Shown: piece by piece, positions 29,725-53,948 of the stretch
Numbering within the stretch: position 1 is the stretch's first letter
Layout of the letters: each line of letters starts with the position of its first letter
The notes under the pieces: generated by a model
Databases searched by the model: none
Told to the model about the DNA's origin: nothing
Seen by the model: the letters and a program-made list of their open reading frames with translations, nothing else
Position numbers and translations under genes: made by a program
Assembly: GCF_014204915.1 (NCBI RefSeq)
Contig: NZ_JACHMH010000001.1
Location: 5,543,501-5,607,500, forward strand
Origin: Crossiella cryophila
GTDB taxonomy: Bacteria > Actinomycetota > Actinomycetes > Mycobacteriales > Pseudonocardiaceae
DNA: 64,000 nucleotides
Reading direction: 5' to 3'

Positions 29725-30219
29725 TCAAGCCATGCTCGCATCGGTGACATTGTCATCAAATAGCATCGAGATGAATTCGTCAAAGGATGAGGCAACTCGT
29801 CGAGGAACGCGGTCCTCATCGACATAGGCAACCGCGGGCTCGCCCTCCGGGCCACACTCGGAGTAGTCGAACATGACAGTGTCATGGCCAGCCGAAGGAG
29901 TATCGCAAAACACTACACCGATCTCCGGATAGCCCCACTCCTTGATCAGGTAAGAACTACCCAGTCCCGACGAGGAATCGATTCCCCAAGGTCCGCCGAT
30001 TCCCCGAATCCCGCTGATCTCGAAGTGATCATCGGCCCAAGACGTGGGAAAAGTCGTGGGGCAGCAGCGACGTCGCGGGGTGCCACCGTTCCGGACAAGC
30101 AGCATCTCGATGTAGCCGCGTGGCAGCCGCACCCCAAGGTCCTTCTCAGCCACGCGGATCATGTCCCAATCGACCTGAGGTCCGGTGTAGTAGTCGCTGT
30201 CCTCGAAAAGTTCCGTCAT
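29725..30219 (-). CDS. SMI1/KNR4 family immunity-type protein
   Basis: The 164-residue protein has the SMI1/KNR4 signatures LPRGYIEMLLVRNGG, the GIRGIGGPWGID core, PEIGVVFCDTPSAGHDTVMFDYSECGPEGEPAV and FDEFISML. Members are mostly immunity proteins against polymorphic or contact-dependent toxins. The ATG at 30219 has GGAG at proper spacing. No toxin or secretion gene is adjacent, so it is an orphan. It may give protection against toxins from competitors, or the toxin gene has been lost. G+C is lower than in flanking genes, suggesting transfer. Confidence 0.93.
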   Translation of the reverse strand: MTELFEDSDYYTGPQVDWDMIRVAEKDLGVRLPRGYIEMLLVRNGGTPRRRCCPTTFPTSWADDHFEISGIRGIGGPWGIDSSSGLGSSYLIKEWGYPEIGVVFCDTPSAGHDTVMFDYSECGPEGEPAVAYVDEDRVPRRVASSFDEFISMLFDDNVTDASMA

Positions 30220-30271
30220 CAGAAAACTCCGGTGCACCCGATCTGTGTATTGAACCGCCACTGCTCGCCGG

Positions 30272-31003: not shown

Positions 31004-31169
31004 TCGAACCCCCCTGTGGCACAAGGCATTCGCCTTGATTGCAGGGTCGCTGGTGAAGATCGTCGCTGTCAATCAGCCGGGAGTGGTGCGGACAAAATCA
31101 CTCGACCGGCCCGGTCTGCCAGCCAAGGATGAGGCCGAATAGTCCATTCGAGACCCTGCCGGAGGTTCG

Positions 31170-36380: not shown

Positions 36381-36575
36381 TCAGGCCAGCTCCGCGATCG
36401 CCGCGGCCGGGCACACGCTGACCGCCTCGCGCACGATCTCGTGCAGGTCGGCGGGCGGCTCCTGGTCGAGCAGCAGCACGATGCCGTCCTCCTCGCGCTG
36501 GTCGAACACGGTGGGCGCGAGCAGCACGCAGGTTCCCGCGCCACAGCAGCGATCCTGGTCCACGCTGATCTTCAT
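36381..36575 (-). CDS. 3Fe-4S ferredoxin, P450 electron donor
   Basis: This 64-residue protein has the small ferredoxin cysteine pattern (DQDRCCGAGTC near the start and VCPAAAIAE at the end) typical of the [3Fe-4S] ferredoxins encoded beside actinobacterial P450s. Start at 36575 overlaps the TetR stop as ATGA. It is the last gene of the P450-TetR-ferredoxin operon and should transfer electrons from a ferredoxin reductase encoded elsewhere to the P450. Confidence 0.93.
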   Translation of the reverse strand: MKISVDQDRCCGAGTCVLLAPTVFDQREEDGIVLLLDQEPPADLHEIVREAVSVCPAAAIAELA

Positions 36576-37234
36576 GGTCGTTCGTCCTTCTCGGTCGGGG
36601 TGCTGACCGGGGCCAGCCACAGCCCGGTCAGCGCGTCGATCAGGCCCACACCGGCCGCCTGCCAGCTGGACCTGGGGGTGTCGGTGCCCTCGGCCAGGGC
36701 GCGCTCGCGTTCGGCGATCATGTGCACCAGCAGCTGGCGGAGCATGTCGCTGCGTTCGGCGCGGACCTCGGCAGGCAGGTCGGGCAGGCTGTGGTGCAGG
36801 CCGTCCACGATCCGGTTGATCGAGGGGGAGGTCAGCGCCTCCTCGATCATGATCGCCCGCAGGGCCGGGTCGGTCATCACCTGGGCGCCGAAGCGGGCGT
36901 ACCAGGTCGGCGTGTCCAGTTTGGCCAGGTGGTCGACGATCGGCTGGACCAGGCAGTGCATCCAGTCCCGGATCTCCCGGCTGTCACCGGCTTCGGCGAC
37001 CAGGCGGCCGCGGTGTTCCTCCACCGGGTCGGCGTGCCGCTGGATGATGGCCCGGACCAGGTCGGCCTTGGTGCCGAAGTGGTAGCCGACCACGGTGTTG
37101 TTGCCCTGCCCGGCGGCCTCGCCGACCTGCCGGTTGGACACCGCGAACACCCCGTGCTCGGCGAAAAGCCGTTCCGCGGCGGCCAGGATCAGCTCCCTGG
37201 TCGCCTGCGCCCGTGCGGCCTTGCTCGTCGTCAT
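36572..37234 (-). CDS. TetR family regulator inside the P450 operon
   Basis: The 220-residue protein has a TetR helix-turn-helix (VSNRQVGEAAGQGNNTVVGYHFGTKADLV) and a C-terminal domain with DWMHCLVQPIVDHLA. Its ATG overlaps the P450 stop as ATGA, and its own stop overlaps the ferredoxin start, so it is cotranscribed between the enzyme and its redox partner. The likely operator is the TAAGTCA-N6-TGACTTA repeat before the P450, making a closed autoregulatory loop. The ligand is probably the P450 substrate. Confidence 0.92.
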   Translation of the reverse strand: MTTSKAARAQATRELILAAAERLFAEHGVFAVSNRQVGEAAGQGNNTVVGYHFGTKADLVRAIIQRHADPVEEHRGRLVAEAGDSREIRDWMHCLVQPIVDHLAKLDTPTWYARFGAQVMTDPALRAIMIEEALTSPSINRIVDGLHHSLPDLPAEVRAERSDMLRQLLVHMIAERERALAEGTDTPRSSWQAAGVGLIDALTGLWLAPVSTPTEKDERP

Positions 37235-38457
37235 GACCGCCATCGAACCGGAAGCTCCCGCAATCCGCCCACCGCGAGCCCCTCCACCTTGCGCAACTCC
37301 GCCACCGGCACGGCCAGTTCGAGCGAGGGCAGCCTGCGCAACAGCACCTCCAGGACCACCTGCAACTCGGTCCTGGCCAGCGGCTGACCCAGGCAGGCGT
37401 GCGCCCCGGCGCCGAAGGCCAGGTGCGGGTTGGGGCTGCGGGTCAGGTCCATCTCGGCGGCGCCGGTGAAGACCTCCTCGTCCCGGTTGGCCGCGGCCAT
37501 GCTGCACACCGCGGTGGTGCCGCCGGGCAACGTGGTCCCGGCGATCTCCAGGTCCTCGGTGAGATAGCGCGCCATGCCGAAGCCCGCGTTGGCGTCCAGC
37601 CGCAGCGACTCCTCCACCGCGGTGCGCACCAGCACCGGATCGGCCAGCAGCTGCTCCCAGCGACTCCGGTCGGCCAGCAGCATCGCGACCATCTTGCTGA
37701 TCATGTTCGCGGTGGTCTCGTGCCCGGCGATCAGCAGTCCCATGCCGGTGGCGATCAGCGCCGGATCCGACATCGGTTCGCCGTCCGGCCCGGTCTCGCC
37801 GATCAGCGCGCTGAGCAGGTCATCGCCGGGGGCGGCCCGCTTGGCCGCGATGTGCCCGGCCATGTACTGGGCGAACTCCAGCTGGGCCAGGTCCATCTCG
37901 GCCTGGGTGTAGCGGGTCATGCTGAGCAACGTGTCCGACCAGTGCGCGAACCGGTCCCGGTCGGCGTCCGGCACGCCGAGCAGGTCGCAGATGACCCACA
38001 CCGGCAGCGGAAAGCCCACTGCCGCCTTGAGATCCGCCGGTCCGCCCTTGGCGACCATCTCGTCCACGAGCTGCTCGGCCATCGCCTCGATCGCCGGTCG
38101 CAGCGCGTTCATCCGGCGGGCGGTGAACCACTTGCCGACCATCCGCCGCCAGCGCAGGTGCCCCTCGCCGTGCTGGGGCAGCACGTTGGACATCTCGCTG
38201 TTGAACAGCCCGCCGGACTCGGTGTCGGCGACCCGGGCCGCGTTGTCCGCCGCGGTCGGCCGGGTGAACCGGGGGTCGGCCAGCAGGCTCTTCACATCGT
38301 CGTAGCGGGTGAGCAGGGTGGCCTCGTCGCCGCTGGCCAGCCGCACGTGCGCGACCGGGCATTCGGCCTGGTAGCGGGCCCACTCGGCGGGTGGCTCCAG
38401 CGCGGCCTCGGTCTCGAACGGGAAACGCGGCAGCTGCCCGGCCTGGCTCTGCGTCAT
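37231..38457 (-). CDS. Cytochrome P450
   Basis: The 408-residue bacterial P450 has the I-helix oxygen-activation motif AGHETT (244-249), the K-helix ExxR (E283-R286 in ESLR) and the heme-binding loop FGAGAHACLG with Cys355. It is soluble and similar in length to CYP105/107-type hydroxylases. It would receive electrons from the ferredoxin two genes downstream. The GGAG-rich binding site lies inside a perfect hairpin (38465-38509), so translation may be controlled. Substrate is unknown; no biosynthetic core genes are near. Confidence 0.94.
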   Translation of the reverse strand: MTQSQAGQLPRFPFETEAALEPPAEWARYQAECPVAHVRLASGDEATLLTRYDDVKSLLADPRFTRPTAADNAARVADTESGGLFNSEMSNVLPQHGEGHLRWRRMVGKWFTARRMNALRPAIEAMAEQLVDEMVAKGGPADLKAAVGFPLPVWVICDLLGVPDADRDRFAHWSDTLLSMTRYTQAEMDLAQLEFAQYMAGHIAAKRAAPGDDLLSALIGETGPDGEPMSDPALIATGMGLLIAGHETTANMISKMVAMLLADRSRWEQLLADPVLVRTAVEESLRLDANAGFGMARYLTEDLEIAGTTLPGGTTAVCSMAAANRDEEVFTGAAEMDLTRSPNPHLAFGAGAHACLGQPLARTELQVVLEVLLRRLPSLELAVPVAELRKVEGLAVGGLRELPVRWRS

Positions 38458-38495
38458 CGCCGACTCCTCCTCGTGGGTGCTTCTGCCACCAGCAT
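38454..38495 (-). CDS. Possible 13-residue leader peptide overlapping the P450 start
   Basis: An ATG in the loop of the leader hairpin opens a 13-codon frame, MLVAEAPTRRSRR, whose TGA overlaps the P450 ATG. It passes through the 3' arm of the hairpin and contains two AGG arginine codons in a row. It has no clear binding site of its own, so real translation is uncertain. If used, it could open the hairpin and couple to P450 translation. Confidence 0.3.
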   Translation of the reverse strand: MLVAEAPTRRSRR

Positions 38496-38509
38496 GGCCA
38501 CGAGGAGGA
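38465..38509 (-). promoter_or_regulatory. Hairpin covering the P450 ribosome binding site
   Basis: TCCTCCTCGTGG (38465-38476) and CCACGAGGAGGA (38498-38509) are perfect 12-base inverted repeats with a 21-base loop. In the transcript (minus strand) the 3' arm is the GAGGAGGA binding site of the P450 and the 5' arm is a matching anti-binding-site strand. The fold would hide the ribosome binding site. Whether the transcript starts upstream of 38509 is not known. Confidence 0.55.
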
Positions 38510-38511
38510 AG

Positions 38512-38531
38512 TAAGTCAATCAGCTGACTTA
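38512..38531. promoter_or_regulatory. TetR operator before the P450 operon
   Basis: TAAGTCA and TGACTTA arms flank 6 bases, forming a 20-base palindrome immediately upstream of the leader hairpin. This is the best candidate site for the TetR encoded in the operon. Confidence 0.7.
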
Positions 38532-38542
38532 AATAGTTCGGG

Positions 38543-40021
38543 CTACCTCCGCACGGTGATCTCGTCGATCAGCGAGCCGTCCTCGGCCAGCGCGCGGACC
38601 TTGAGCTGGGCGGGCGAGCCGTTCGCGGCCGGGGTGACGTCGACCGCCACCAGGCTGTACCCGCGGTAGCGCACCCGGGACCAGCTGACCTTGGTCTCGG
38701 TGAACTTCGAGCTGTTCTTGTTGAAGCAGCGCATGGTCGGCGTGCCGCCGGTGTTCTCCTGGCCCAGGTAGCTCTCCGGGGCGTTCTTGTTGATCGCGTC
38801 CAGGGCCTGGCCGCCACCACCGGCCGTGACGTAGGTGGTGCCGTCGGTGGCCGGGGTGACCGTGCCGCGCGGCTTGACCTGCCGGGTGCCCTTGCCCGCG
38901 CGGATCGGGTCGGTGCGCTCGTAGAGGCGGTTGTGCGCGTTGAGCACCAGGTCGACCTTGTGCTTGTCGAACAGCGGCGCCCACTTCTGTTGCGCCACCA
39001 GCTCCGCGCCGCCGTCGGCGGTGGAGTAGGGGGCGTGGTGCAGGTAGACCACGATGAAGTCGATGGTGCGATCAGCGCGGAACCTGGCCAGCTGACTGTC
39101 GATCCACTTGAGCTGCTTGCCCTTGCTGTACTCGTAGTTGGCCGTGTTGCGGTAGGAGATGTCGTTGCCGTCCAGGCTGAGCAGCCCGAGGTTCTGGTAC
39201 CGCCAGGAGTAGACGCCGACCGAGCCGCTCCAGGCGTTGTCCGGCATGGCGAAACGGGCCGTGGTGCCGCCGTAACCGTTGCCGGAGTACCAGTCCTCCA
39301 TCTCGCGGTTGCCCAGCGCGATCATCCACGGGATGCCCGAGGCCGCCAGGTCGTTCTGCGCGAAGTAGGCGTCCCAGCGCCCGGCGTCGTACTGGTCGGT
39401 GTCGGTGTGCCCGCCCTCCACGCCCGCCTTGCCCGAGGTGATGGCGTAGCTGAGGTTGCCAAGGGCGAGGTGGAAGGCCGGGGCCAGGTCGGTGATCGCG
39501 CTGTTGGCCTGGCGCGCGTTGTAGCCGATGCCCTGGTCGCCGACGGCGGTGAAGCTGAACGGCGCGGTGCTGCCAACGGCCGGGGCGGTGCGGAAGCTGG
39601 CGATCTCGCCGATGCGGCCGCTGGCAAGGGGATCGTAGCCCTGGTGGCCCACGACGTACTGGTAGGTGGTGCCGGGGGAGAGGTTGCCCAGCCGGACGTG
39701 CAGGTAGTACTGGCTCATGGTGGGCGGGGCGTGTGGCGGGAAGCTGTGTTCGCCGTGCTGCCAGGACAGTTCGCTCTTGAGCGTGCGTGGTTCGGCGGAG
39801 ATCGGCGGGCCGAACTTGCCGGGCTCGGTGGCGAGCCGCACGTAGGGCCCGGTCACCGCGCCGAGTTCCTGCCAGGAGATCACCACCTGCTTGGACGGAT
39901 CCGCGCCGTAGGCCAGGTGTCGGCCGAGTGGGCGCAGTTTCTGGCCGGGGGCAACGGTTGTACGGCTCGACGTGCCCGCGGTGAACAAGGCCCGCCGCGA
40001 GTAGTGCGCAGTCTCAGACAT
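38543..40021 (-). CDS. Degenerate purple-acid-phosphatase-like protein (probable pseudoenzyme)
   Basis: This 492-residue protein is a clear tandem paralogue of the phosphatase at 40045-41667, alignable throughout. It has the N-terminal Fn3-like domain and the metallophosphatase domain, but the metal-binding motifs are damaged: D162 (GDQG) stays, the GDxxY Asp is N189 (GNLSY), the GNHE His is R239 (GNRE), and the GHxH ending is AHNR (H363, R365). At least two metal ligands are therefore lost. The Tat signal is reduced to SRRALFTAG without a proper hydrophobic stretch. It may be a decaying copy or a protein recruited for binding. The C-terminal domain is intact and the frame is uninterrupted. 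Confidence 0.88.
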   Translation of the reverse strand: MSETAHYSRRALFTAGTSSRTTVAPGQKLRPLGRHLAYGADPSKQVVISWQELGAVTGPYVRLATEPGKFGPPISAEPRTLKSELSWQHGEHSFPPHAPPTMSQYYLHVRLGNLSPGTTYQYVVGHQGYDPLASGRIGEIASFRTAPAVGSTAPFSFTAVGDQGIGYNARQANSAITDLAPAFHLALGNLSYAITSGKAGVEGGHTDTDQYDAGRWDAYFAQNDLAASGIPWMIALGNREMEDWYSGNGYGGTTARFAMPDNAWSGSVGVYSWRYQNLGLLSLDGNDISYRNTANYEYSKGKQLKWIDSQLARFRADRTIDFIVVYLHHAPYSTADGGAELVAQQKWAPLFDKHKVDLVLNAHNRLYERTDPIRAGKGTRQVKPRGTVTPATDGTTYVTAGGGGQALDAINKNAPESYLGQENTGGTPTMRCFNKNSSKFTETKVSWSRVRYRGYSLVAVDVTPAANGSPAQLKVRALAEDGSLIDEITVRR

Positions 40022-40044
40022 GAGGAAGCCTTATCTGCTAGGGA

Positions 40045-41667
40045 TCAGCCGCGCCGCAGGGTGATCTCGTCGACCAGCACGCCCGTCTCGGTGAGCGCGC
40101 GGATCCTCAGCTGGGCGGGATTGCCGTTGGCGGCCGGGGTGACCTCGCCGGAGACCAGGCTGTAGCCCCGGTAACGCACCCGGGACCAGTTCACCTTGAT
40201 CAGCTCGGTCGGACCGTCCTGCTGGTCCAGCCGCATCGTCGCGGTGGCGTCCCGGACGTGGCCCAGGTAGGAGTCGTCGATGGCGCGGTCGGTCCACTTG
40301 TTGACGCTCTCGCCGCCACCGCCCGCGGTGATGTAGGTGGTGCCGTCCTTGACCGGGTTGACGGTGCTGCGGATCGGCGCGGTCCGGGTGCCCTTGTCGC
40401 CGCGGATCGGGTCGGTGCGCTCGTAGACGTGGTTGTGTCCATTGAGGACAAGGTCAACCTGGTAGCGGTCGAACAGCGGGGCCCACTTCTGTTGCGCGCC
40501 AAGCTCCGCGCCGTTGGAGTCCGAAGTGGAGTAGGTGCACTGGTGGCAGTAGACCACGATGAAGTCGATGGTCGGATCACCGCGGAACCTGGCCAGCTGC
40601 GCCTCCAGCCAGCGCAGCTGCTTGCCCTCGGTGTAGTTCAGGTTGGACGGGCTGTTGTAGCAGATGTCGTTGCCGTCCAGGCTGAGCAGCCCGACGTTCT
40701 GGTACCGCCAGGAGTAGACACAGGTCGATCCGGCCCAGGCGTTGTCCGGCATGGAGAACCGGGCCCGCATCCCGCCGTAGCCGAAGTTGTCGTACCAGCC
40801 CTCCATCTCGTGGTTGCCCAGCGCGACCATCCACGGGATCTCCGCCGCGATCGGCTCGTTCTGGGCGAAGAAGGAGTCCCACTTGCGCGCGTCGTAGATG
40901 TCCTCGGCCGGGTGGCCGCCCTCGCCGTTGAGCGCGTAACTCATGTCCCCCATGGCCAGGTGGAACTGGGGCGCGAGATCGGCGACCAGGCTGTTGGTGG
41001 CCAGCGCGTTGTAGTTCACGCCCTGATCGCCGAAGGCGGTGAAGGCGAAGGCGCCGCCACCGGCCGGGGTCGGCGCGGTCCGGAAGGTGGCCAGCTCGCC
41101 GATCCGCCCACTGGTGGTCGGGTCGTAACCCTGGTGGCCAACCAGGTAGTAGTAGGTGGTGTTGGGCAGCAGGTCGTCCAGCCGGACGTGGTGGTAGTGC
41201 TGGGTGACCGCCTTGCCCAGGTGCGGGGAGAAGGTGTGATCCGGTTTCTGCCAGGCCAGATCACTGGTCAGCGCGCGCACCTCGGCCGGCACGGCCGAGC
41301 CGAACTCGCCGGGACTGGTGCCGAAGCGGAGGTAGGGCGCGGTCACCCTGGCCGGCGTCTGCCAGGAGACCACCACCGAGCGGGCGGCGTCCGCGCCGAA
41401 GGCCAGATGCCGCCCGAACGGCCGTAACGCCGACCCGGCGACGATGTCGGCGTTGAGCAACACGGTCGGACCGGCCGGCGCGGCGGCGGCGGTCCCGGGT
41501 GCCAGCACACCGCCGGTGGCGAGTGCGGCGGCGCCCAGGGCGCCGACCCGGAGGACGGTGCGGCGGGAGGGGCGCCGCATGGCGTCGTCGTACAGCTCCG
41601 CGAGGCGGGGCGCGTTGGCGGCGTCGCGGGTGGGTTGAGACCTTCTGCCTCGCGGAGTCTCAGACAT
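40045..41667 (-). CDS. Tat-exported purple acid phosphatase-like metallophosphoesterase
   Basis: This 540-residue protein carries a twin-arginine signal (SRRTVLRVGALG near 34-45, then AAALATGG), an Fn3-like N-terminal domain and a metallophosphatase domain. All five motifs are present: GDQG (D214), GDMSY (D241, Y244), GNHE (N285, H286), VYCH (H375) and GHNHVYER (H411, H413). It should hydrolyse phosphomonoesters outside the cell. It is followed by the degenerate copy on the same strand. An internal start at the M30 codon is possible, but both paralogues begin MSET, which supports the longer start. Confidence 0.93.
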   Translation of the reverse strand: MSETPRGRRSQPTRDAANAPRLAELYDDAMRRPSRRTVLRVGALGAAALATGGVLAPGTAAAAPAGPTVLLNADIVAGSALRPFGRHLAFGADAARSVVVSWQTPARVTAPYLRFGTSPGEFGSAVPAEVRALTSDLAWQKPDHTFSPHLGKAVTQHYHHVRLDDLLPNTTYYYLVGHQGYDPTTSGRIGELATFRTAPTPAGGGAFAFTAFGDQGVNYNALATNSLVADLAPQFHLAMGDMSYALNGEGGHPAEDIYDARKWDSFFAQNEPIAAEIPWMVALGNHEMEGWYDNFGYGGMRARFSMPDNAWAGSTCVYSWRYQNVGLLSLDGNDICYNSPSNLNYTEGKQLRWLEAQLARFRGDPTIDFIVVYCHQCTYSTSDSNGAELGAQQKWAPLFDRYQVDLVLNGHNHVYERTDPIRGDKGTRTAPIRSTVNPVKDGTTYITAGGGGESVNKWTDRAIDDSYLGHVRDATATMRLDQQDGPTELIKVNWSRVRYRGYSLVSGEVTPAANGNPAQLRIRALTETGVLVDEITLRRG

Positions 41668-41690
41668 GAGCTGAGGTTAGGAAGGTTTAT

Positions 41691-42662
41691 TTACTTCGTC
41701 AACGGATGCGATATCGTGCATGATTCCGCCGGTCCCTGGGCTGCCGGTGTGCCTGCGCCGGTGGTCAGCGCGGTGCGGCAGGCGGCGATGAATGCCTCGA
41801 TCCGGCGGCTTGGTCGCTGGCCGGGCAACATCTGGATGCCCACCGGCGCCGTGCCGAGGTCGTCGGTGAGTTCGAGCAGGGCGACGCGGCCGCCGTCGAG
41901 GGTCACTGGCGTGGCCGGCCGGAAGTACACGATGCCGAATCCCCGGCCCGCCGACACCGTGCCCCGCAACATCTCATACGAACCGACTGGGCTGACCTGT
42001 GGCGCGGGCAGGCCGGCCCGGTCGAAGAGCCGCCGGACGAACTGGAGCGGGCCGGGCTCCACGTTGGTGTGCAGCGGTTCCCCGGCAAGGTCGGCCAGAC
42101 CGGCGCGCCCGATCCCGGCGAAGGGGTGATCTGCCGCGACCATCGCGTAGGGGCGCAGGTCGGCGAGGTGGACGGTGGCGAATTCGTCGGCAGGGTCCAC
42201 GGGATGGGTGATGACCAGCTCATGGGTGCCCGCTCGCAGCAGTTCGCGCAGGGTTTCCATCCCGGCCTCGGTCACCTGCGGGGACAGGGCGGGGTGACGC
42301 TGGGCGAGCTGCCGGTGTACCGGGGGGAGCACGAATGGGGTGATCAGGGAAAGGCAGCCGATCTTCAGGACGCCGGCGACCTCGTCCGCCTGCCGCGTAT
42401 AGGCCGTGAGGGCGGCGGCGTCGCGGAGCAACTTCCTGGCCATGGGGAGTAGGCGTCTGCCAGCGGGGGTGACCGTGACACCTCGGGACTGGTAACGGGA
42501 GAGAAGCGGAAAGCCGAACTCCGCCTCTAGTCGTTTGATGGCGGCGGACATGGCCGCCTGGGAGACGTGCAGTTCCCGGGCTGCGGTGGAGATGTTTTCC
42601 GCTTCGGCGGCGGCGGCGAAATAGAACAACTGCGTGAGGCTGAAGTCCGGCAGGTCATCCAT
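41691..42662 (-). CDS. LysR family regulator
   Basis: The 323-residue protein has an N-terminal winged helix-turn-helix (ISTAARELHVSQAAMSAAIKRLEAEFG) and the two-subdomain co-inducer domain with LKIGCLSLITPF and ELVITHPVDPADEF. ATG at 42662 has GGAG 7 bases upstream; the four-codon longer frame begins with TTG and no site. It ends 23 bases before the phosphatase pair on the same strand, so it could be cotranscribed with and regulate it. Effector unknown. Confidence 0.92.
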   Translation of the reverse strand: MDDLPDFSLTQLFYFAAAAEAENISTAARELHVSQAAMSAAIKRLEAEFGFPLLSRYQSRGVTVTPAGRRLLPMARKLLRDAAALTAYTRQADEVAGVLKIGCLSLITPFVLPPVHRQLAQRHPALSPQVTEAGMETLRELLRAGTHELVITHPVDPADEFATVHLADLRPYAMVAADHPFAGIGRAGLADLAGEPLHTNVEPGPLQFVRRLFDRAGLPAPQVSPVGSYEMLRGTVSAGRGFGIVYFRPATPVTLDGGRVALLELTDDLGTAPVGIQMLPGQRPSRRIEAFIAACRTALTTGAGTPAAQGPAESCTISHPLTK

Positions 42663-43018
42663 CGGGTTCTCCAACTCGGGAATCAGGCGACACGTGGTGA
42701 AACGGGCCAGGTTGATCGAGGTAAGTCAGTTCAGGTCAGCGCGGAACTTGAAGTCAAGGGGATGACCCAGAAGTGGGGACCGGGGCGGTTGATGGAAAAA
42801 CACACGGGTCAGTGCGCGGTGGCGGTTGTGGCGTGGCGTATAGCTTGAAGCGATTCTGGTCATCGGGATAATGATGGGCTGGATGGTGGCGATCGTATTC
42901 ATTGCTGCGCTAGCTTGAGGTCAGGTCGAGCCGCAGGACTTCCGCGGCAGACCGCTTGTATGGGTACGACATTCAGCCGCGTGTCGGCGGAAATCATCCC
43001 AAAAGTCGGAGGTATGTG
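42663..43018. other. Intergenic region with a promoter candidate
   Basis: This stretch of about 350 bases has no convincing gene. It is less G+C-rich towards the right end. A sigma70-like pair TTGAAG (42845-42850) and GATAAT (42867-42872) with a 16-base spacer points rightward to the peptide gene, giving a leader of about 140 bases. No palindrome typical of a repressor was noticed. A 15-residue hydrophobic frame (MMGWMVAIVFIAALA) begins at 42871 but lacks a binding site. Confidence 0.5.
42845..42872 (+). promoter_or_regulatory. Candidate sigma70-type promoter for the peptide locus
   Basis: TTGAAG and GATAAT are separated by 16 bases and lie in locally lower-G+C DNA, facing the 39-residue peptide gene. 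No transcript evidence is available. Confidence 0.4.
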
Positions 43019-43138
43019 ATGTTGGATCAGATTATGGAAGCACTGGGTAATGCTCTCGGGTCGATTCCTGTGATCGGGCCCTTTCTTAAGATCATCATCC
43101 CGATCATCAGGAAGGTGCTCAAGATTTTCGGCCTGTAG
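43019..43138 (+). CDS. 39-residue cationic amphipathic peptide
   Basis: The small frame has a strong binding site (GGAGG, 6 bases before the ATG at 43019). It encodes a peptide starting MLDQIMEALGNALGSIPVIG and ending PFLKIIIPIIRKVLKIFGL. The second half is strongly hydrophobic with K24, R31, K32 and K35 falling on one face of a helix; acidic residues are confined to the N-terminus. There is no signal peptide and no Cys, resembling leaderless bacteriocins, membrane-active modulins or type I toxins. A perfect 12-base palindrome (GCAGGCGCCTGC, 43139-43150) follows the stop. Family is not recognised. Confidence 0.7.
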   Translation: MLDQIMEALGNALGSIPVIGPFLKIIIPIIRKVLKIFGL

Positions 43139-43150
43139 GCAGGCGCCTGC
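43139..43150. other. 12-base palindrome right after the peptide stop
   Basis: GCAGGCGCCTGC adjoins the stop codon of the peptide gene. Too short without a loop to be a clear terminator; it may affect read-through to the secreted-protein genes. Confidence 0.35.
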
Positions 43151-43246
43151 GCGTGCTTGGGTGCGCGAATTGGGTATGCGCAGTACTGCTGCTGAAGAAT
43201 GGCTGACCGTTCCTGTGGTTTCTGCTGGATCAGAAAGGGTGTTCTG

Positions 43247-43753
43247 GTGAATACCGGAAAGAATCGGAGCTTGATTCTGGGCGCATTAGCAGGGCTGGTG
43301 TCATCCGTGCTGCTCGCGCCGGGGGCCTCTGCTGAAGAGGAAAATCTCAAGTGTGGCGACTGGGTCTCGGGATACTCCGCGGACTCAAACCATCGTGTGG
43401 ATGTTCGACTGTGTGCTAGTCCGCTGACGGCCAGCACGGCTGGAAAGATCAAAGTTCGCGTCGAGTTCGGTAACTTCCAGAAATTCGATTCCGTCAATTG
43501 GGTAGCGGACACCGGCAGTCACACGGCTGGCGCCAACCTCTCGGTCAAGCCTGCTGCCGGGGATCCGATCGTCGCCACCCTCAACGGAACTTTTGTCGGG
43601 GCGGCCGGGAACACCGAGCTTTCCACGTTGCCCGCCACTGATCCTGGAATGAAGCCAGGACTTGCGACACTCAATGCTGACGTGGAAGTCACAAGCGCGG
43701 ATGCCGCGCAGTCGGTATCCGCCAGTGTGAAGAGTGATGTCGTGGTTCTCTAG
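43247..43753 (+). CDS. Small secreted protein A, two-cysteine paralogue
   Basis: The 168-residue protein has a signal peptide (MNTGKNRSLILGALAGLVSS, cleavage near ASA-EEE). The mature part is Ser/Thr/Val/Ala-rich and strand-like, with C36 and C56. The stretch NLKCGDWVSGYSADSNHRVD then VRLCAS has the same 20-residue Cys spacing and SAD motif as the next protein, so the two are paralogues. GTG at 43247 has AGAAAGGG upstream. No known domain is recognised; an extracellular immunoglobulin-like or beta-sandwich protein is plausible. Confidence 0.75.
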   Translation: MNTGKNRSLILGALAGLVSSVLLAPGASAEEENLKCGDWVSGYSADSNHRVDVRLCASPLTASTAGKIKVRVEFGNFQKFDSVNWVADTGSHTAGANLSVKPAAGDPIVATLNGTFVGAAGNTELSTLPATDPGMKPGLATLNADVEVTSADAAQSVSASVKSDVVVL

Positions 43754-43809
43754 GATGTCGGCCGCGCCTTCTTGGTGGCTCGGACTATTTAGTGGAAGGA
43801 ATGGCTGAA

Positions 43810-44301
43810 ATGGGCACAAGCTTACATCGGACGGTAGTGACCTTGACTGCCTTGCTGGGAACCTGTGCTTCTTTGATCGCACTGCCTGCTGCTGCTTCGG
43901 CCGCCCCGCAGGAGCAGTTCGAGTGTCAGGCCCCGGTTACGCAGGCATCGGCTGACGGTACTCGAAAGGCCACCTTCACGTTCTGCGCCTACGGGAAGCA
44001 GGGGAAGGTGGTGTATCAGATCAGGATGAGCAACATTCAGATTGGCGGAGTTCCGGAGTTGACGCCGAGCATTTGGGCGTATGAATCCGTGTTCGCTGGC
44101 GGAAAGACTCCTGCCAGTGACAGGTATGGCCCGACCACGATTTCGTCCGGTGCCGGCGAGATCGTGGGTCCGGAGAGCGAGATCCAGACAGGGGAGGGGC
44201 TGGTAAAGGTGTCCGTGACGGCGCGGGATTATCTGCTTGATCCTTTGGATACGAGCACTGTTGAAGCCAAGCTTGGTCAGGAAGTCGTTGTGCCCAACTG
44301 A
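43810..44301 (+). CDS. Small secreted protein B, two-cysteine paralogue
   Basis: The 163-residue protein has a signal peptide (HRTVVTLTALLGTCASLIAL, cleavage near ASA-APQ) and C39 and C59 with the motif QFECQAPVTQASADGTRKAT then FTFCAYG, equal to protein A in spacing. The rest contains beta-strand-type segments (GKVVYQIRMSNIQIGG, GLVKVSVTARDYLL). Start at 43810 follows GGAAGGA at good distance; an earlier ATG is too close to it. Together with protein A and the peptide it forms a lower-G+C three-gene locus. Confidence 0.75.
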   Translation: MGTSLHRTVVTLTALLGTCASLIALPAAASAAPQEQFECQAPVTQASADGTRKATFTFCAYGKQGKVVYQIRMSNIQIGGVPELTPSIWAYESVFAGGKTPASDRYGPTTISSGAGEIVGPESEIQTGEGLVKVSVTARDYLLDPLDTSTVEAKLGQEVVVPN

Positions 44302-44336
44302 CCTGAGCAACGGTTGGCCAGCAGGGTGATCACAAG

Positions 44337-44373
44337 CGGATGCCCGCTGATCGCGTAGATCAGCGGGCATCCG
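44337..44373. terminator. Bidirectional hairpin terminator candidate
   Basis: A perfect 16-base stem (CGGATGCCCGCTGATC and its complement) with a 5-base loop lies between the convergent secreted-protein and NHL genes. There is no U-tract, as is common in actinomycetes, so strength is uncertain. Confidence 0.6.
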
Positions 44374-44388
44374 GCCGTACGCGTGGGG

Positions 44389-46476
44389 TCAGGCTGGAAT
44401 CCGGCGGATCGTCCGGGTCTGGCCGTCGGCCACGTACACGTTCCCTGCCGCGTCGAGGGTCAGGCCCCAGGCACGCCCGAACTCGGCCAGTGCGGTGGGA
44501 CCGCCGTCGCCGCCACTGGTGAGGTCGTGGCCCTCGCCGGGTCGGGCGTCCGGGCCCGCCATGGTGTGCAGCACGCCGTTCGCGTCGACCTTGCGGATCC
44601 GGCCGATCTCGTCGAAGTAGAAGTTCCCGGCCCGGTCGGTGGCGATCTGGCCGGGCGACCACAGCGCGATCGAGGTCGCCTGGGCGCCGTCCGGCTGGGG
44701 CGGTGACAGGATCGGCGAGGGCTCGGCGCCGTTGCCCGCGACCGTGCTGATCACGCCCTGTGTGTTGATCTTGCGGATGCGGCGGTTGCCCTTGTCGGCG
44801 AAGTAGACGTTGCCCGCGTGGTCGGCGGCCACCGAGGCGTAGGAGGTAGCCGGGTTGAACTGAGCGGCGGTCGCCGGGCCGCCGTCGCCGGCGTAGCCCT
44901 TCACCCCGGTGCCGGCGAAGGTGGAGATGATGCCCTGCGGGGTGACCATGCGGATCCGGAAGTTGGCGTTGTCGGCGATGTAGAGGTTGTCGGCTCCGTC
45001 CAAGGCGATGTACTGCGGCTCCGCGCCCAGCAGCGCCGCGGTCGCCGGGCCGCCGTCCCCGGCGAAGCCGGTTTCCCTGGTGCGCCCGACCACGGTGGTG
45101 AGCACGCCCAGGGTGTCGAGTTTGCGCACCACGGCGTCGTAGGCGTCGGCGAAGAAGAGGTTGCCCGCGCTGTCCACGGCCATTCCGTGTGGCGCCTTGG
45201 CGCGGGTCACCACGGTGGAGATGATCCCGGCCGGGGTGATCTTGCGGATGGAGCCGAGCTGGGGATCGGTCACGTACATGGTGCCGTCCCGGCCGATGGC
45301 GACCGCCCTCGGCTCGTAGAAGCCCGCCTTGAGCGCCGGGCCACCGTCGCCTTGGCCGCTCTGGCTGCCATCCCCGGCGAACGTGCTCATCAGCCGTCCG
45401 GCCTGGACCCGGCGCACCCGGTGGTTGTCCCGGTCGGCGAGGAACAGGTGCGACGAACCATCGGTGAGCACCGCGCCCGGCGCGCTCACCCGGGCCACCA
45501 GGCCCTGGCCGCCGTCCCCGGCGAACCCGGCGGTGCCGTCACCGGCCTGGACGCGGGCCTTGAGCTGGGCGGTCAGCGCGAGCACCCGGTTGTTGCCGGT
45601 GTCGGCGATGTAGATGTTGCCGCCAGGGTCCAGGCCGACGCCGCGTGGCCCGTTCAGCTCCTTGATCGCCTGGAACGGCGCGCCCTGGCCCGCGACGGGG
45701 CGGGCGTAGGGCGAGGTCGGTTCCTTGAGCTGCACGCGGTTGTTGCCGGTGTCGGCGATGTACAGGATGCCCGTGGCGGTGACCACGACACCGCGCGGCG
45801 CGGTCAGCCGGTCGGTCTCGGTGCCCGGCGCGCCGGTGCCCGCGACGGTGTTGATGCGGCCGTCGGCGGTGATCCGGCGGATGCGGTTGTTGTCGGTGTC
45901 GGCGATGTAGAGGTTGTCCGCCTTGTCAACGGCCAGCCCCGACGGTCCATTGAGGACAGACTGCGCGGCAGGGCCGCCGTCGCCGCCGTAGCCGTACGCC
46001 CCGGTGCCCGCGACCGTGCTGATCACACCCTGCGGGCTGACCTTGCGCACCCGCGAGGCCAGGTAGTCGGACAGGTAGAGGTTGCCCTTGCTGTCGATGG
46101 CGAGCCCGTGCGGGGTCTGCAACTGGGTCGCGGTGGCCGGGCCGCCGTCGGGCCCGGAGCCGAACTGGCCGGTGCCCGCGACGGTGCTGATCACGCCATC
46201 GGGGGCGATCTTGCGGACCCGGGAACCCCAGTACTCGGCGACATAGGTGTTGCCCGCGGCGTCCCTGGCCAGTCCGGCGGGGGAGTCGAGCAGGGCGCCG
46301 GTGGCCGGGCCGTTGTCGCCGAGTGGGCCGGTGGTGGTGCCGTTGCCGGCGTAGGTGGTGATCACTCCCGGTGTGTTGGCCGGGGTGGCCGCGGCGGCCG
46401 GGAGCGGCAACGCCGCCAGCACGGTGGCCGAGGACAGGACCACGAGCAGCCCGTGGCGGATTTCGCGCACGCGCAT
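44389..46476 (-). CDS. Secreted NHL-repeat protein
   Basis: The 695-residue protein has a signal peptide (HGLLVVLSSATVLAALPL, AAA-TPAN) and about twelve NHL-type repeats of the form GxISTVAGTGxxGxxGDGGPAT...L..PxGLAxDxxGNLYxADxxNxRIRKI, some degenerate. Two six-bladed propellers fit that number. It is probably an extracellular binding or carbohydrate-interacting scaffold. AAGGAAGTGAG precedes the ATG. It lies 31 bases after the giant secreted protein on the same strand, so they form one transcription unit. Confidence 0.92.
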   Translation of the reverse strand: MRVREIRHGLLVVLSSATVLAALPLPAAAATPANTPGVITTYAGNGTTTGPLGDNGPATGALLDSPAGLARDAAGNTYVAEYWGSRVRKIAPDGVISTVAGTGQFGSGPDGGPATATQLQTPHGLAIDSKGNLYLSDYLASRVRKVSPQGVISTVAGTGAYGYGGDGGPAAQSVLNGPSGLAVDKADNLYIADTDNNRIRRITADGRINTVAGTGAPGTETDRLTAPRGVVVTATGILYIADTGNNRVQLKEPTSPYARPVAGQGAPFQAIKELNGPRGVGLDPGGNIYIADTGNNRVLALTAQLKARVQAGDGTAGFAGDGGQGLVARVSAPGAVLTDGSSHLFLADRDNHRVRRVQAGRLMSTFAGDGSQSGQGDGGPALKAGFYEPRAVAIGRDGTMYVTDPQLGSIRKITPAGIISTVVTRAKAPHGMAVDSAGNLFFADAYDAVVRKLDTLGVLTTVVGRTRETGFAGDGGPATAALLGAEPQYIALDGADNLYIADNANFRIRMVTPQGIISTFAGTGVKGYAGDGGPATAAQFNPATSYASVAADHAGNVYFADKGNRRIRKINTQGVISTVAGNGAEPSPILSPPQPDGAQATSIALWSPGQIATDRAGNFYFDEIGRIRKVDANGVLHTMAGPDARPGEGHDLTSGGDGGPTALAEFGRAWGLTLDAAGNVYVADGQTRTIRRIPA

Positions 46477-46507
46477 GACTCACTTCCTTTCAGGACAAAG
46501 GGAAGAA

Positions 46508-49500
46508 CTAGTTCGAGACGCCGTTGGGGTAACTGGCGCGGGCGTGCTGCCTGGCGAGCTTGAGGGTGTCGAGCACCTCGTCCACCAGTGGCAGGGTCTG
46601 GGTCTGGGTGCCGTCGGCCACCGCCCGGAACTGGGTGCTCATCCGCTGGTACAGCCGGTCGCCGCGAGCCGCGCCGATCTGTTGCAGGCAGCGGGAGATC
46701 GGGTCAACGCCCACCGCGCGGAAGCTCGCGCAGTCGATCGGCGTCTCGCTGGGTTTGGTGTCGTTCAACAGGTTCAGCACGAGCTTGCCGCCGCCCTCCC
46801 GTTGTGCTTTCGCCGCCTGCTGGTAGAGCGCGGTCAGCATCGGACTGCCGACGCTGCCGGGCACCGGCGGGCGGTTGGCGATCAGGCCGTGCGCGCCGTA
46901 GAGCAGCGCGTGCAACTGGTCGTCGTTGAGCTTGGCGCGCGGGAAACCCAGGTCGGTGTATGCCTGGTAGAGCAGCACGGTGTTGTTGAGCGCGTGCCCG
47001 GCGGCGATGCCGTCCTTGCTCAGCTCGTAGGCCACCACGTCGTAGAACCGCGCCTGCCGCTCGCTGATCAGCTCGGCCACCGGATCGCCCTCGACCGGGA
47101 AGTGGTGGTTCTGGTCGAAGCGGTGCGTGTAGCGAACATCGGCCTGTAGCGCCTGCTCCAGGTTCGGGCTGACGTCGGAGTTTGAGCAGTGCGGGGGCGG
47201 CGGCGCGGGCTGACCGGGCCTGCCGTTCCAGATGCAGGTGGGGAAGTACTTGATGCCGTTGAGCTGCCGCCAGCGGCGCGGCGGTCCGGGCGGGCCGGTC
47301 ACCGACTCGAAGAAGCGGATGTCCAGCCTGGTGTGGAAGGTGTACTGGCAGTTGCTGGAGGTGCAGATCGCCTCGGTGGGCGAGCGGGTCACCGTGGCGC
47401 CCTCGTAGCAGACCTGCAGGCCCCAGCCGGGGTCGATCCAGCGCCCGATCCGGAACGGGTAGGCGCGGGCGTGCACGCTGTCCAGCTCGTCGATGAACGG
47501 CGGGGTCTTGATCTCCGCCCAGTGCGAGCCGTCGCAGGAGCGTGTGGTCGGCGGCGGCGGGGACAGCTTGGCGTTCTGCTCGGTGGTGAGTTGCTGGTAG
47601 GGGTTGAACAGGTCGAACTGCCTGCCATCGGCCATCACCGGCGACCGCTTGCGCAGGGTGTCCGAGCCGGTGGCGGACAGGAAGTTGTCCAATTTGGACT
47701 TGTAGTCGGTGGCCAGGCCGCGGTAGAGCGCGCTGACCTTGTCCTCGCGGGCTAGGTCCGGGGCGTTGAACCGCTTGGTCTGCCTGCTGACCTCCGCGCC
47801 GGTGTTGATCAGGTCGGTGGCCCGCTGCTGCGCGGGTCCTTCCTGCCCGGCGAGTTTCGGGTTCTGCAGCGCGGTCAGGTAGTAGGCGCGGGCGGCCGAG
47901 GCCCACAGGTCCACATTGGACACTCCGACGCCGGGCTGGGAGACGGTGAACTGGGTGCCGTAGTTCTGGTTGGCGTAGTTGGCCAGCCAGTCCACCGAGC
48001 CGGACGCGCCCTTGTGGCCCAGCACGCTCAACGCGTCGGTGTCGGTGTAGTTGTGCGCGGTGAAGGTGCTGTTGCGGGCCACATCGGTGCCCATGGTGAG
48101 GAACCGGGACACCGCGGGCACGTAGTGGTTGTCGTAGCTGGGCAGGGTGGCGCCGTTGTTGTAGGCCGGGTAGTCCACGTACTGGGTGACCGCGTTGAGG
48201 AACTCGACCTTCTGGCCGTCGCTGAGCCCGTCCAGGATGGCTTTCCCGAAGGACTGCAACCGGGTCTGCAGGGTCAGCAGCTGGTCGTGCACCACCGCGA
48301 GGTTCGCGCCGACCTGCTGGATGAGCTGACCCAGTTCGGCGAACCCGGTGCGCATCTCGGTGTAGATGGTGTTGAGCGCGCTGTCGATCCGGTCGAAGCG
48401 CTTGTTCATCGTCTCGTGGATGATCTCCAGACTGCGTTGCACGTTCTGGAAACCGCGGTTGATCACGTCCATGATCTGTTGCTGGGCCTGCTTGTCCGCG
48501 CCGCCGAGCAGCCCGGCGAAGATCTGCACCAGCCCCACGGCCGCGCCGACCACCGCGCCGATCCCGCCGAAGGTCGCGCCGATGCCGGTGGCCGCGGCCA
48601 GGGTCTTCACCGCGGCGATCAGCTGATTGGCCTGGGTGGCGATCTTGTAGGCGGTCTCGGCCCACATCTTCAGCTTCGCGCTCGCGCCGTCGTCGAGGTA
48701 CTTGAGCGCGCCGACCACGTACTCGACCACGCCCTTGGCGTCGTCGATGATCTTCTGCCGGTCCTTGGCCTCCCTGGCGGCCTGCTCCACCGCGGCCTTG
48801 TCCGGCGCGGGCACCTCGGTGCCCGGCATCGGCTGCCCGCCCTCGGTGGCCTTGAGCAGGTCGGTGAGCTGCTGGGTGGCCGCGTCCAGCTTGTCCTGGG
48901 CGGGGGCCAGCTGGCGGGCGCCCTCGGCGACGAAGGCGGTCCGGCCCCGTTCGCCACTGGCCTTGAAGGCGTCCACGTTGACCATGTCCCGCAGGACCGG
49001 CAACGACTTGAGCGTGTTCACGTCCGCGGTGGCGTCCAGAGCGAAGGGCTGGCCGGGGGCGGCCGCGCCGATCTGCTCCCGCCAGCCCGCGGCGAACACC
49101 GCGTCCCGCGCGGCCAGCTCGTGCACCGCGGCCCACACCTCGGACTCGAACCCGGCGAACGCCGCGTCCAGGTCCAGGCCCTGCTGTGCCCCGGTGAGCC
49201 GCTGCTGCCGGGTCTTGACCGCCTGGGTGAGATCCCGCCCGGCGACCACGGCGAGCAGCCGGGTCAGCCGAGGGCCGGTGATCACCGTGCCGGGGGTGTC
49301 GTAGGTGATGGTGAGCAGCCTGCGCAGGATCTCCGCGTGCGGCTGCCTGGTCTGCTCGGCGGAGAGCTTGCTGTTGAAGGCCGAGCGCAGTTCGCCGAGG
49401 TGGATCCGGACCGTGCGGGCGTCCGCGCCGGGGTTGGCGGCCCGCCAGTCCAGCAGTTCGGCGCTGGCGATGACGTCCTTGTCGAGGTCCAGGCCGTCGT

Positions 49501-49684
49501 TCTTGATCCGCATGCCCGCGGCGAAGAGCACGCTGGACCACTGGGTGTCGGTGAGGGAGACCGGTGGCTCGGCACCGGCGTGCACTGGCTGGACGGTACC
49601 GGCCAGCAGGGCGGCGGACAGGGTGGTGATCACGAGCACCCGTCCGCCGCCGACTGTTCTTGACAACAGTTTCACGTCTCGCAT
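46508..49684 (-). CDS. Large secreted protein with coiled coil and glycine-rich hydrophobic core
   Basis: The 1058-residue protein has a signal peptide (GGGRVLVITTLSAALLAG then VHAG at its end). The N-terminal half is helical with long coiled-coil-like stretches (APAQDKLDAATQQLTDLLKA, KAAVEQAAREAKDRQKIIDD). A Gly/Ala hydrophobic segment (TGIGATFGGIGAVVGAAVGL and onward to about residue 400) is followed by another helical pair with heptads (RSLEIIHETMNKRFDRID, MRTGFAELGQLIQQVGANLA). The C-terminal part is Cys-containing and rich in aromatic residues. The helix-hydrophobic hairpin-helix order resembles alpha-helical pore-forming toxins, but no family is recognised. Start at 49684 gives a proper signal peptide. 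Confidence 0.85.
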   Translation of the reverse strand: MRDVKLLSRTVGGGRVLVITTLSAALLAGTVQPVHAGAEPPVSLTDTQWSSVLFAAGMRIKNDGLDLDKDVIASAELLDWRAANPGADARTVRIHLGELRSAFNSKLSAEQTRQPHAEILRRLLTITYDTPGTVITGPRLTRLLAVVAGRDLTQAVKTRQQRLTGAQQGLDLDAAFAGFESEVWAAVHELAARDAVFAAGWREQIGAAAPGQPFALDATADVNTLKSLPVLRDMVNVDAFKASGERGRTAFVAEGARQLAPAQDKLDAATQQLTDLLKATEGGQPMPGTEVPAPDKAAVEQAAREAKDRQKIIDDAKGVVEYVVGALKYLDDGASAKLKMWAETAYKIATQANQLIAAVKTLAAATGIGATFGGIGAVVGAAVGLVQIFAGLLGGADKQAQQQIMDVINRGFQNVQRSLEIIHETMNKRFDRIDSALNTIYTEMRTGFAELGQLIQQVGANLAVVHDQLLTLQTRLQSFGKAILDGLSDGQKVEFLNAVTQYVDYPAYNNGATLPSYDNHYVPAVSRFLTMGTDVARNSTFTAHNYTDTDALSVLGHKGASGSVDWLANYANQNYGTQFTVSQPGVGVSNVDLWASAARAYYLTALQNPKLAGQEGPAQQRATDLINTGAEVSRQTKRFNAPDLAREDKVSALYRGLATDYKSKLDNFLSATGSDTLRKRSPVMADGRQFDLFNPYQQLTTEQNAKLSPPPPTTRSCDGSHWAEIKTPPFIDELDSVHARAYPFRIGRWIDPGWGLQVCYEGATVTRSPTEAICTSSNCQYTFHTRLDIRFFESVTGPPGPPRRWRQLNGIKYFPTCIWNGRPGQPAPPPPHCSNSDVSPNLEQALQADVRYTHRFDQNHHFPVEGDPVAELISERQARFYDVVAYELSKDGIAAGHALNNTVLLYQAYTDLGFPRAKLNDDQLHALLYGAHGLIANRPPVPGSVGSPMLTALYQQAAKAQREGGGKLVLNLLNDTKPSETPIDCASFRAVGVDPISRCLQQIGAARGDRLYQRMSTQFRAVADGTQTQTLPLVDEVLDTLKLARQHARASYPNGVSN

Positions 49685-49791
49685 CGTGTCGGGGTGTCCG
49701 GTGATCCGATCACCCACGGCCGGACCGCGATCAGCGCGTCATTCGGTGGCCGCCGGGTCGCGCGAAAGGGCTGAGATGGCCGCGCTTCCGG

Positions 49792-50010
49792 TCAGTTCCG
49801 TTGTGCCACCAGGGTTTCCAGGCGCGGCACGATCGCGGCCGGGGTCGGTGTGGCCAGGATCTCCCGTCGCAGCCGTTGGATTCCCTCCTGCGCGCTGTCC
49901 GCCAGCACCGAGCCGACCGTGGACTTGATCTCGTCCAGCCCGGCGTGGGCCAGTGCCTCGCCGCTGAGGTCCTCGAAGATCGTGATCAGCGATTTGGCCA
50001 GGGTGTCCAT
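49792..50010 (-). CDS. C-terminal fragment of an unidentified gene
   Basis: A 72-residue frame, MDTLAKSLITIFEDLSGEAL..., ends at 49792 and is helical and acidic. Upstream of its ATG the frame runs into the rmlA remnant as nonsense residues, so the original 5' part is probably lost at the recombination junction near 50070. It may still be expressed as a small protein. No family recognised. Confidence 0.4.
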   Translation of the reverse strand: MDTLAKSLITIFEDLSGEALAHAGLDEIKSTVGSVLADSAQEGIQRLRREILATPTPAAIVPRLETLVAQRN

Positions 50011-50074
50011 GTCCTCGGTGGATTCAGCGGGTTCGGGGTCGAGCAGCACCAGCTGCGGCGGGGCGGGCTGCCAG

Positions 50075-50428
50075 GTGGCGCTGGTGCTGGGCGACAACAT
50101 CTTCCAGGGCACCGGTTTCTCCCGGGTGCTCACCTGCGCGCGCAAGGATCTCGACCAGGCAGGCCGCCTGGTCTCGATGGAGGAGAAGCCCAGCAACCCC
50201 AAGCCGGACCAGGCGATCACCGGCCTGTACTGCTACGACAACGACGTCTTCGACATCGCCCGCGGCATCAAGCCCTCCGACCGCGGCGAACTGGAGATCA
50301 CCGACGTCAACCGGGTCGACGTGGAACAGGGCCGAGGGCAGCTCATCCCGCTCGGCCACGCCATGATCGACTCGGCCTACGGCCGCTATGTGATGGAGGT
50401 GGCGCGCACGCTGGCCTCGCCGGGCTGA
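50075..50428 (+). pseudogene. rmlA: Deleted remnant of glucose-1-phosphate thymidylyltransferase
   Basis: The plus-strand frame encodes LVLGDNIFQGTGFSRVL, then GRLVSMEEKPSNPKPD, then AITGLYCYDNDVFDIARGIK, then GELEITDVNRVDVEQGRGQL, and ends SAYGRYVMEVA. These are successive RmlA segments, but the N-terminal nucleotide-binding part, a piece between the first two segments and about 70 residues before the last one are missing. An intact RmlA is about 290 residues and makes dTDP-glucose. The remnant overlaps the truncated-looking 3' end of the TPR gene and adjoins the fragment at 49792-50010, marking a recombination scar. Confidence 0.85.
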
Positions 50429-52847: not shown

Positions 52848-53948
52848 CTACCCGGTCAGCTCCGCGACGACCCGGTCCGGGGACGGCATGGCCGCGATCT
52901 CCGCCGCGATCCGGCGTGCCGCGGCCCGCGGACCCGGGTCGGCGAGCAGGGCTTCGGCCAGCGTGGTCACGGCCTCGCTGGTGACGTCGTCCGGCAGCAG
53001 GCGGGCGCCCGCACCGGCGGTGACCACGGCCTCGGCGTTGCCGAACTGGTCGGCGGCCCGTGGCAGCAGGAGTTGCGGCAGACCGGCCTGGAACGCGCCC
53101 AGCATGGTGCCGCTGCCGCCGTGGTGCACGACCAGGTCGGCCCTGGGCAACAGATCCTGCTGCGCCACCCAGGACTCGACCCGCACGTTGCCGGGCACCT
53201 CGCCCAGTGCGGCGGCCGGCACGGTGGGGCCGGTGGTGACCAGCACGTCCACCGGCAGCGTCGCCAGTCCGAACAGGCTCTGCCGCAACAGTTCTGGGGT
53301 GGCGAACGCGGTGCCCAGGGTGAGGTAGACCAGCGGGCGGCGGCGGACCGGCGGTGGCGCGCCGGGCGGGGACCAGCCGACCGGGCGCAGCGGGATCCGG
53401 TCCGCGGTGGCCAGGAAACCGGGCGCTTGCACCGATTCCGGGCAGATGTCGAGCACCCGACCGCTGTGCAGGACAGTCGCGGCGTCCAGCCCGGCGTCCT
53501 CGACCAGCTCGGTGAAGACCCAGTTGATCATCTTCCAGGTGGGGCCTGGGTCGACCCGGCCGAAAGTGTGTGCCAGCACCGGAATCCCGGCCTGGGCCCC
53601 GGCCAGGGCCGCGCCGAGGGTGGTCACGTCGTGGATCAGGAGTTCGGTGCGGTGCCTGGCGAGCAGCACCGCCAGGTCCTCGGCCCACTGCCGGGCCATG
53701 ACCTGGCCGAGCGCGTGCCCGACCTGCCGGTCCCCGGCCTGGACACCCGCCGCCGTGGCCGCCGCGAGCGCCTCGGGCAGGCCCATCCCGGCCGGTACCG
53801 CGGGCAGGCCGGCCGCGTGCAGCACCGGCAGGAACGGGGCTCCGGCAGCGAAGACGACGTCGTGTCCGGCCCGGATGGCGGCCTGGGCGAGTGGCACCAG
53901 CGGGTAGGTGTGGCCGTGGGCGGCCATCGCGGCGAACAGCAGGCGCAT
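52848..53948 (-). CDS. Glycosyltransferase of the MGT/GT1 type
   Basis: The 366-residue protein has the GT1 B-fold: N-terminal FAAMAAHGHTYPLVPLAQAA and the C-terminal nucleotide-sugar motif DLVVHHGGSGTMLGAFQAGLPQLLLP with PRAADQFGNA. GT1 enzymes of this kind glycosylate macrolides, aromatic compounds or lipids with UDP- or dTDP-sugars. It starts one base after the DUF6817 gene stop and is cotranscribed. Aglycone unknown; the rmlA remnant nearby is not a supply of dTDP-glucose. Confidence 0.92.
   Translation of the reverse strand: MRLLFAAMAAHGHTYPLVPLAQAAIRAGHDVVFAAGAPFLPVLHAAGLPAVPAGMGLPEALAAATAAGVQAGDRQVGHALGQVMARQWAEDLAVLLARHRTELLIHDVTTLGAALAGAQAGIPVLAHTFGRVDPGPTWKMINWVFTELVEDAGLDAATVLHSGRVLDICPESVQAPGFLATADRIPLRPVGWSPPGAPPPVRRRPLVYLTLGTAFATPELLRQSLFGLATLPVDVLVTTGPTVPAAALGEVPGNVRVESWVAQQDLLPRADLVVHHGGSGTMLGAFQAGLPQLLLPRAADQFGNAEAVVTAGAGARLLPDDVTSEAVTTLAEALLADPGPRAAARRIAAEIAAMPSPDRVVAELTG

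Follow-up and report, generated by a model that had tools for sequence, protein, structure and literature searches.

Three small genes on the plus strand of a 64,000-nucleotide stretch of Crossiella cryophila DNA (NZ_JACHMH010000001.1, positions 5,543,501-5,607,500; hereafter the window, whose own positions serve as coordinates below) probably form a real but orphan accessory transcription unit in a variable part of the genome, a reading to which we give a probability of about 0.6. They encode a 39-residue peptide and two secreted-looking proteins, here called A and B, and are followed by a hairpin. The reading frames are present, their composition is atypical, an 8-kb segment that holds them is absent from G002, the closest congener among those compared, and no relatives were detectable in the sets searched. 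Their appearance is that of accessory genes, of unproven function, and falls short of demonstrating a new system.

The peptide gene (P0001) occupies 43019-43138 and has a GGAGG ribosome-binding site at 43008-43012, 6 bases ahead of its ATG. The gene for protein A (P0002) follows at 43247-43753, most likely from a GTG start, with an upstream ATG at 43199 as a possible alternative, and the gene for protein B (P0003) lies at 43801-44301, starting at ATG 43801 or ATG 43810. An earlier interpretation made from the letters of the DNA (the sequence-only reading) had already described a peptide frame with a good ribosome-binding site in a segment of lowered G+C whose products belong to no recognised family, and all of this holds. 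The window has a G+C content of 0.711 and the locus one of 0.574, a value that ties with the lowest 1457-base stretch of the window when sampled at 50-base steps, and neither the peptide nor A or B has a significant family match in Pfam, NCBIfam, PHROGs or PADLOC. At third codon positions the peptide, A and B genes have a G+C of 0.65-0.70, compared with 0.84 in the neighbouring gene for a LysR-type regulator and 0.93-0.95 in five other neighbours. When frames were scored by the codon usage of six neighbouring genes, the annotated frame was the best of six for peptide, A and B alike; the scores are slightly under background (-0.02, -0.29 and -0.35 bits per codon), and for protein B the lead is narrow (-0.351 vs -0.411 for the next frame). 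A second stretch of reduced G+C lies at about 28500-31200, with 0.617-0.635 over 1457-base windows.

The segment that this genome has and G002 lacks at the corresponding position measures 8019 bases (41750-49768). One contig of that genome (G002:C9) matches window positions 36383-41749 at 93% and 49769-49937 at 83%, and the two pieces meet at its base 12825; elsewhere in G002 the segment is matched just by pieces of about 120 bases or less. It contains most of the LysR gene, of which the last 20 or so codons lie in DNA shared with G002, the genes for the peptide, A and B, and the genes for an NHL-repeat protein and a 1069-residue protein. In the congeners G001 and G004 the match likewise stops just past a pair of phosphatase genes (at 41702 and 41610, respectively) and other genes come after it, while G003 gave short matching pieces only. 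Taken together, these breaks show that the neighbourhood is variable.

Downstream of B, between it and the convergent NHL gene, sits a perfect inverted repeat of 16 bp with a 5-base loop (44337-44373; 100% complementary, folding energy -35.3 kcal/mol). This is a likely terminator and likely marks the end of the three-gene unit; it has no T run, and was missed by a terminator scan that demands one. The hairpin and the absence of the segment in the nearest relative add support for a compact unit. The promoter side is less telling. The sequence-only reading had given the unit its own sigma70-like promoter, and this part had to be dropped, as the match at 42845-42872 on the plus strand agrees at 9 of 12 bases and is the single such site found where shuffled sequences average 0.6, and so is no evidence of a promoter. 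LysR-box-like dyads upstream (6, against a mean of 4.0 in 200 mononucleotide shuffles) led nowhere, and a 20-nucleotide inverted repeat of 85% identity, pairing 42856-42875 with 43091-43110, is uninterpretable without a transcription start. Rfam gave nothing above its curated threshold; one sub-threshold match to a small RNA (E 0.037) lies over the hairpin at the end of B.

The peptide itself has an isoelectric point (pI) of 9.70, a grand average of hydropathicity (GRAVY) of 1.21 and a net charge of +2. A weakly amphipathic N-terminal half is joined through a Gly/Pro hinge (GSIPVIGP) to a cationic C-terminal half that is strongly amphipathic, with a hydrophobic moment of 0.76 in an 11-residue span and 0.67 in an 18-residue one. 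There is no Trp; nor is there a leader, which agrees with what had been said of it before. Its make-up would fit a membrane-binding helical hairpin. The best match to any family model was to a PADLOC model at E 0.029, Pfam matches were found just at E 0.06-0.12 and to unrelated families, and a search of PDB sequences returned a single match at E 0.87.

Proteins A and B both begin with a hydrophobic stretch (best 12-residue Kyte-Doolittle averages 2.25 and 2.14) and an Ala-x-Ala-like site, which were taken, by eye and by hydropathy, as predicted signal peptides. These would leave mature parts of about 139 and 132 residues, both of them acidic (pI 4.69 for A and 4.64 for B). In each mature part two cysteines stand exactly 20 positions apart, Cys36 and Cys56 in A and Cys42 and Cys62 in B (numbered from ATG 43801), with a SAD motif between them; B has a further cysteine, Cys22, inside its signal peptide. 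Secretion, cysteine spacing and motif thus agree with the earlier description, which had also called the two proteins paralogous. Here the case is suggestive and not strong: A and B match in blastp at E 4e-4 with signal peptides included, and the similarity of the mature parts exceeds what composition explains, though weakly, as 71 of 5000 shuffles reached the score in local alignment and 13 of 5000 did so in global alignment. Structure prediction gave an all-beta model for A at low confidence (predicted local distance difference test, pLDDT, 47; predicted template modelling score, pTM, 0.40) and a beta model for B (pLDDT 60, pTM 0.56), and both may be regarded, at low to moderate confidence, as beta proteins. 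Structural searches with these low-confidence models returned background-level matches alone, to small barrels and sandwiches; the top of the list for B consists of small barrels, including the meningococcal factor H binding protein, at background Z. Searches against PDB sequences led nowhere.

Relatives were sought in four congeners, 296 other genomes of the family and 275-393 other genomes of the class, not every query being used in every set, and further in plasmids, phages and IMG/VR; of the three products, an exact-word scan of 84,980 species covered B only. E-values are per genome. In none of these sets was a relative of the peptide, A or B found. Protein B was seen in its own genome only among five genomes of the genus, at E <=0.01 in 5 of the 297 genomes of the family (own included), and nowhere in plasmids, phages or IMG/VR; in the exact-word scan 45 stretches shared a word with it and 0 were confirmed. 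Protein A likewise matched in 5 of 297 family genomes, own included, with one plasmid match (E 0.8, to a HipA-domain gene) and none in phages or IMG/VR. For the peptide the numbers were 4 of 297 in the family at E 0.1, own included, and 1 of 276 in the class, this being its own, with none in plasmids, phages or, by a pattern search, IMG/VR. Of 394 genomes of the class, a profile of A and B together matched 12 at E 0.05 (own included); when run on five genus genomes, own included, it gave only weak fragments in the congeners (E 0.024 or worse), and it matched nothing in IMG/VR. The non-self genomes seen compare with those expected by chance as 4 to about 3 for A, 4 to about 3 for B, 3 to about 30 for the peptide and 11 to about 20 for the class profile; counts near or below the chance rate were rejected as chance. 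The weak loci inspected by listing their open reading frames (ORFs; L004, L008, L009, L011, L013 and L017) are, by eye, either inside unrelated genes or opposite them, or have stops within the matching stretch. In L013, 27 residues of a 67-residue frame align with the peptide at 48% similarity (E 0.083), but this frame lacks the cationic C-terminal half, and nothing resembling A or B was noticed among the frames of its 3 kb. Others were judged from their table rows alone (L005-L007, L010, L012, L014 (open frames of 351-929 amino acids), L016, L018-L021 and L038-L048). A 33-residue fragment match to protein B in G004 (E 0.006) was set aside, as it lies inside a stretch matching phosphatase genes. 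Literature searches turned up no paper on this locus, as judged by titles and the starts of abstracts.

If the unit works as its layout suggests, the peptide, A and B genes would share one transcript. The peptide would be made in the cytosol and fold on the membrane as two helices around the Gly/Pro hinge, with the C-terminal helix cationic and amphipathic, and in this way the peptide might disturb or mark the membrane. A and B would be exported, form one disulfide each, adopt a small beta barrel or sandwich fold and act outside the cell as binding proteins, and expression of the unit may be turned on by the LysR regulator encoded divergently from it. Any joint action of the three products is guessed from the adjacency of their genes. 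The sequence-only reading had gone further and seen in the locus a candidate for an undescribed system. That the unit is compact, low in G+C and of no recognised family is borne out. A three-part extracellular system, in which a signal-free membrane-active peptide is bound by the paralogous, disulfide-closed, exported and acidic beta proteins A and B under a LysR switch, seems improbable. Under such an arrangement A and B (pI 4.7 and 4.6) would bind the peptide (pI 9.7) as carrier, immunity or target-recognition partners. Nothing comparable was found in the searches, and the claim is therefore without comparative support.

A first alternative concerns the peptide frame. Its ribosome-binding site and length are by themselves not striking, since 17% of 2000 sequences made by dinucleotide shuffling of 42675-43246 contain an ORF of at least 39 codons preceded by a Shine-Dalgarno (SD) sequence; no conserved copy of it was found in the sets searched, and it lies 108 bases ahead of A, within the likely leader of the unit. 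A and B might then be real orphan secreted proteins and the 39-codon ORF a chance frame or a cis-acting leader with a functionless product, which we regard as a possibility worth keeping in mind, though a doubtful one. Short (<=80 residues), hydrophobic (GRAVY >=1) ORFs preceded by an SD sequence appear in just 0.2% of the same number of shuffles, by a criterion picked after the peptide had been seen, and the codon fit of the frame, -0.02, stands against -0.16 or worse in the other five. RNA structure around the ORF is not unusual (z-scores -0.89 and -1.09), so an attenuator is not favoured.

Taking the peptide as real, its character has been likened to two known kinds of short peptide. The NCBIfam and Pfam libraries would be expected to include a model of the aureocin A53-like family of leaderless bacteriocins, and the peptide has no match in NCBIfam and no significant one in Pfam. 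As a leaderless bacteriocin-like membrane peptide used against competitors, with helper or immunity roles for A and B, it would be in the right phylum: 97 aureocin A53-like core peptides have been reported from Actinomycetota (PMC11580447), and the peptide, itself hydrophobic, shares with them that it is short, cationic and leaderless. In that study, however, such peptides have a mean of 50 residues, a mean charge of 4.63 and a typical Trp content, as opposed to 39 residues, +2 and no Trp here. The leaderless bacteriocins outside this family are described as shorter and poorer in Trp, a point in favour of this reading. The clusters highlighted there carry genes for PH-domain (bPH_2) proteins and ATP-binding cassette (ABC) transporters (PMC11580447), whereas here the peptide gene is followed by two genes for secreted proteins. 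No ABC transporter or bPH_2 domain was found among 18 window proteins scanned (8 + 10, chosen by length and place and not amounting to every ORF), and of nine bPH_2 matches in the genome the nearest is at 2.81 Mb, the locus being at 5.59 Mb, so that none is within about 2.7 Mb. The comparison with leaderless bacteriocins made on the sequence-only reading has thus not been upheld, and we consider it unlikely. Type I toxins, in turn, commonly have fewer than 60 residues and are hydrophobic and cationic towards the C terminus (PMC8309996), and the peptide (39 residues, GRAVY 1.21, charge +2) would resemble the membrane-associated ones among them, its Pro/Gly bend included. If it were such a toxin, silenced by an antisense RNA, A and B would be unrelated neighbours; yet they are two same-strand secretory genes of like unusual composition that come after it. 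Unlike the toxins as outlined in PMC8309996, the peptide has its cationic residues spread along the amphipathic C-terminal half and is linked to secretory genes. In 42600-44450 a search of the minus strand for promoters, by consensus scan only, came out empty, Rfam had no match above threshold, and no antisense or antitoxin RNA was identified by these two means. We regard a type I toxin as improbable. An orphan accessory unit of peptide, A, B and hairpin remains our preferred reading.

The LysR-type regulator gene (41691-42674, minus strand, from ATG 42662 or TTG 42674) is divergent from the unit and may, by position only, be considered its candidate regulator. It matches the Pfam families HTH_1 (1.2e-18) and LysR_substrate (1.3e-30). 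In 200 family genomes the sole non-self match of its protein at E <=1e-50 is 37% identical, the four congeners gave none at this limit, and the exact-word scan of the 84,980-species set gave one distant match. The 12 kb around the 37% match contain no match to the peptide, A or B. In actinobacteria, Lsr2 can silence AT-rich acquired genes, and transcription factors can act as counter-silencers (PMC7002338, PMC12239563); the locus, a low-G+C stretch in a high-G+C chromosome with a transcription factor gene adjacent, recalls such genes.

On the other side, the NHL-repeat protein gene (44389-46476, minus strand) is convergent with B, and next to it the gene for the 1069-residue protein (46508-49717, minus strand) encodes a secreted-looking product without a Pfam family. 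Residues 327-490 of the latter match the PADLOC model LeoBC (E 2e-7). At E 1e-10, 12 of the 199 other genomes of the family have relatives of this protein, and all four congeners have distant ones. Four stretches with such relatives were examined (G094, G050, G070 and G114). The 1069-residue and NHL genes adjoin again in G094 (42-46% identity), the other three have no NHL match, and genes for the peptide, A and B are absent from all four, so the NHL/1069-residue pair is not tied to the three genes. Plasmid searches with the 1069-residue and LysR proteins gave no match at the limits set.

Some further observations concern the flanks of the variable segment. Two tandem purple acid phosphatase genes (38543-41667, minus strand) are paired in G001, G002 and G004 as well, and their upstream neighbourhood differs in each of the three. 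At the far end, 49769-49937 is a remnant that shares 83% identity with the region around the 3' end of a G002 glycosyltransferase gene, and about 50070-50400 resembles, by eye, a piece of a glucose-1-phosphate thymidylyltransferase; region 49769-50400 looks like rearranged gene remnants. A P450 gene lies at 37231-38457 and a gene for an EryCIII-like glycosyltransferase at 52848-53948 (both minus strand), and beside the phosphatases in G002 (L034) glycosyltransferase, regulator and transporter genes can be seen by eye. These hint at a decayed or shifting cluster for a glycosylated metabolite.

If the products of the three genes cooperate, a group of bacteria whose fame rests chiefly on small-molecule antibiotics would have a compact system of a peptide plus its carrier or receptor. 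If they do not, the locus would still illustrate cleanly how orphan secretory genes come or go together with a variable segment of 8 kb, and gains or losses of this sort may be one source of the unexplained accessory genes of actinomycetes.
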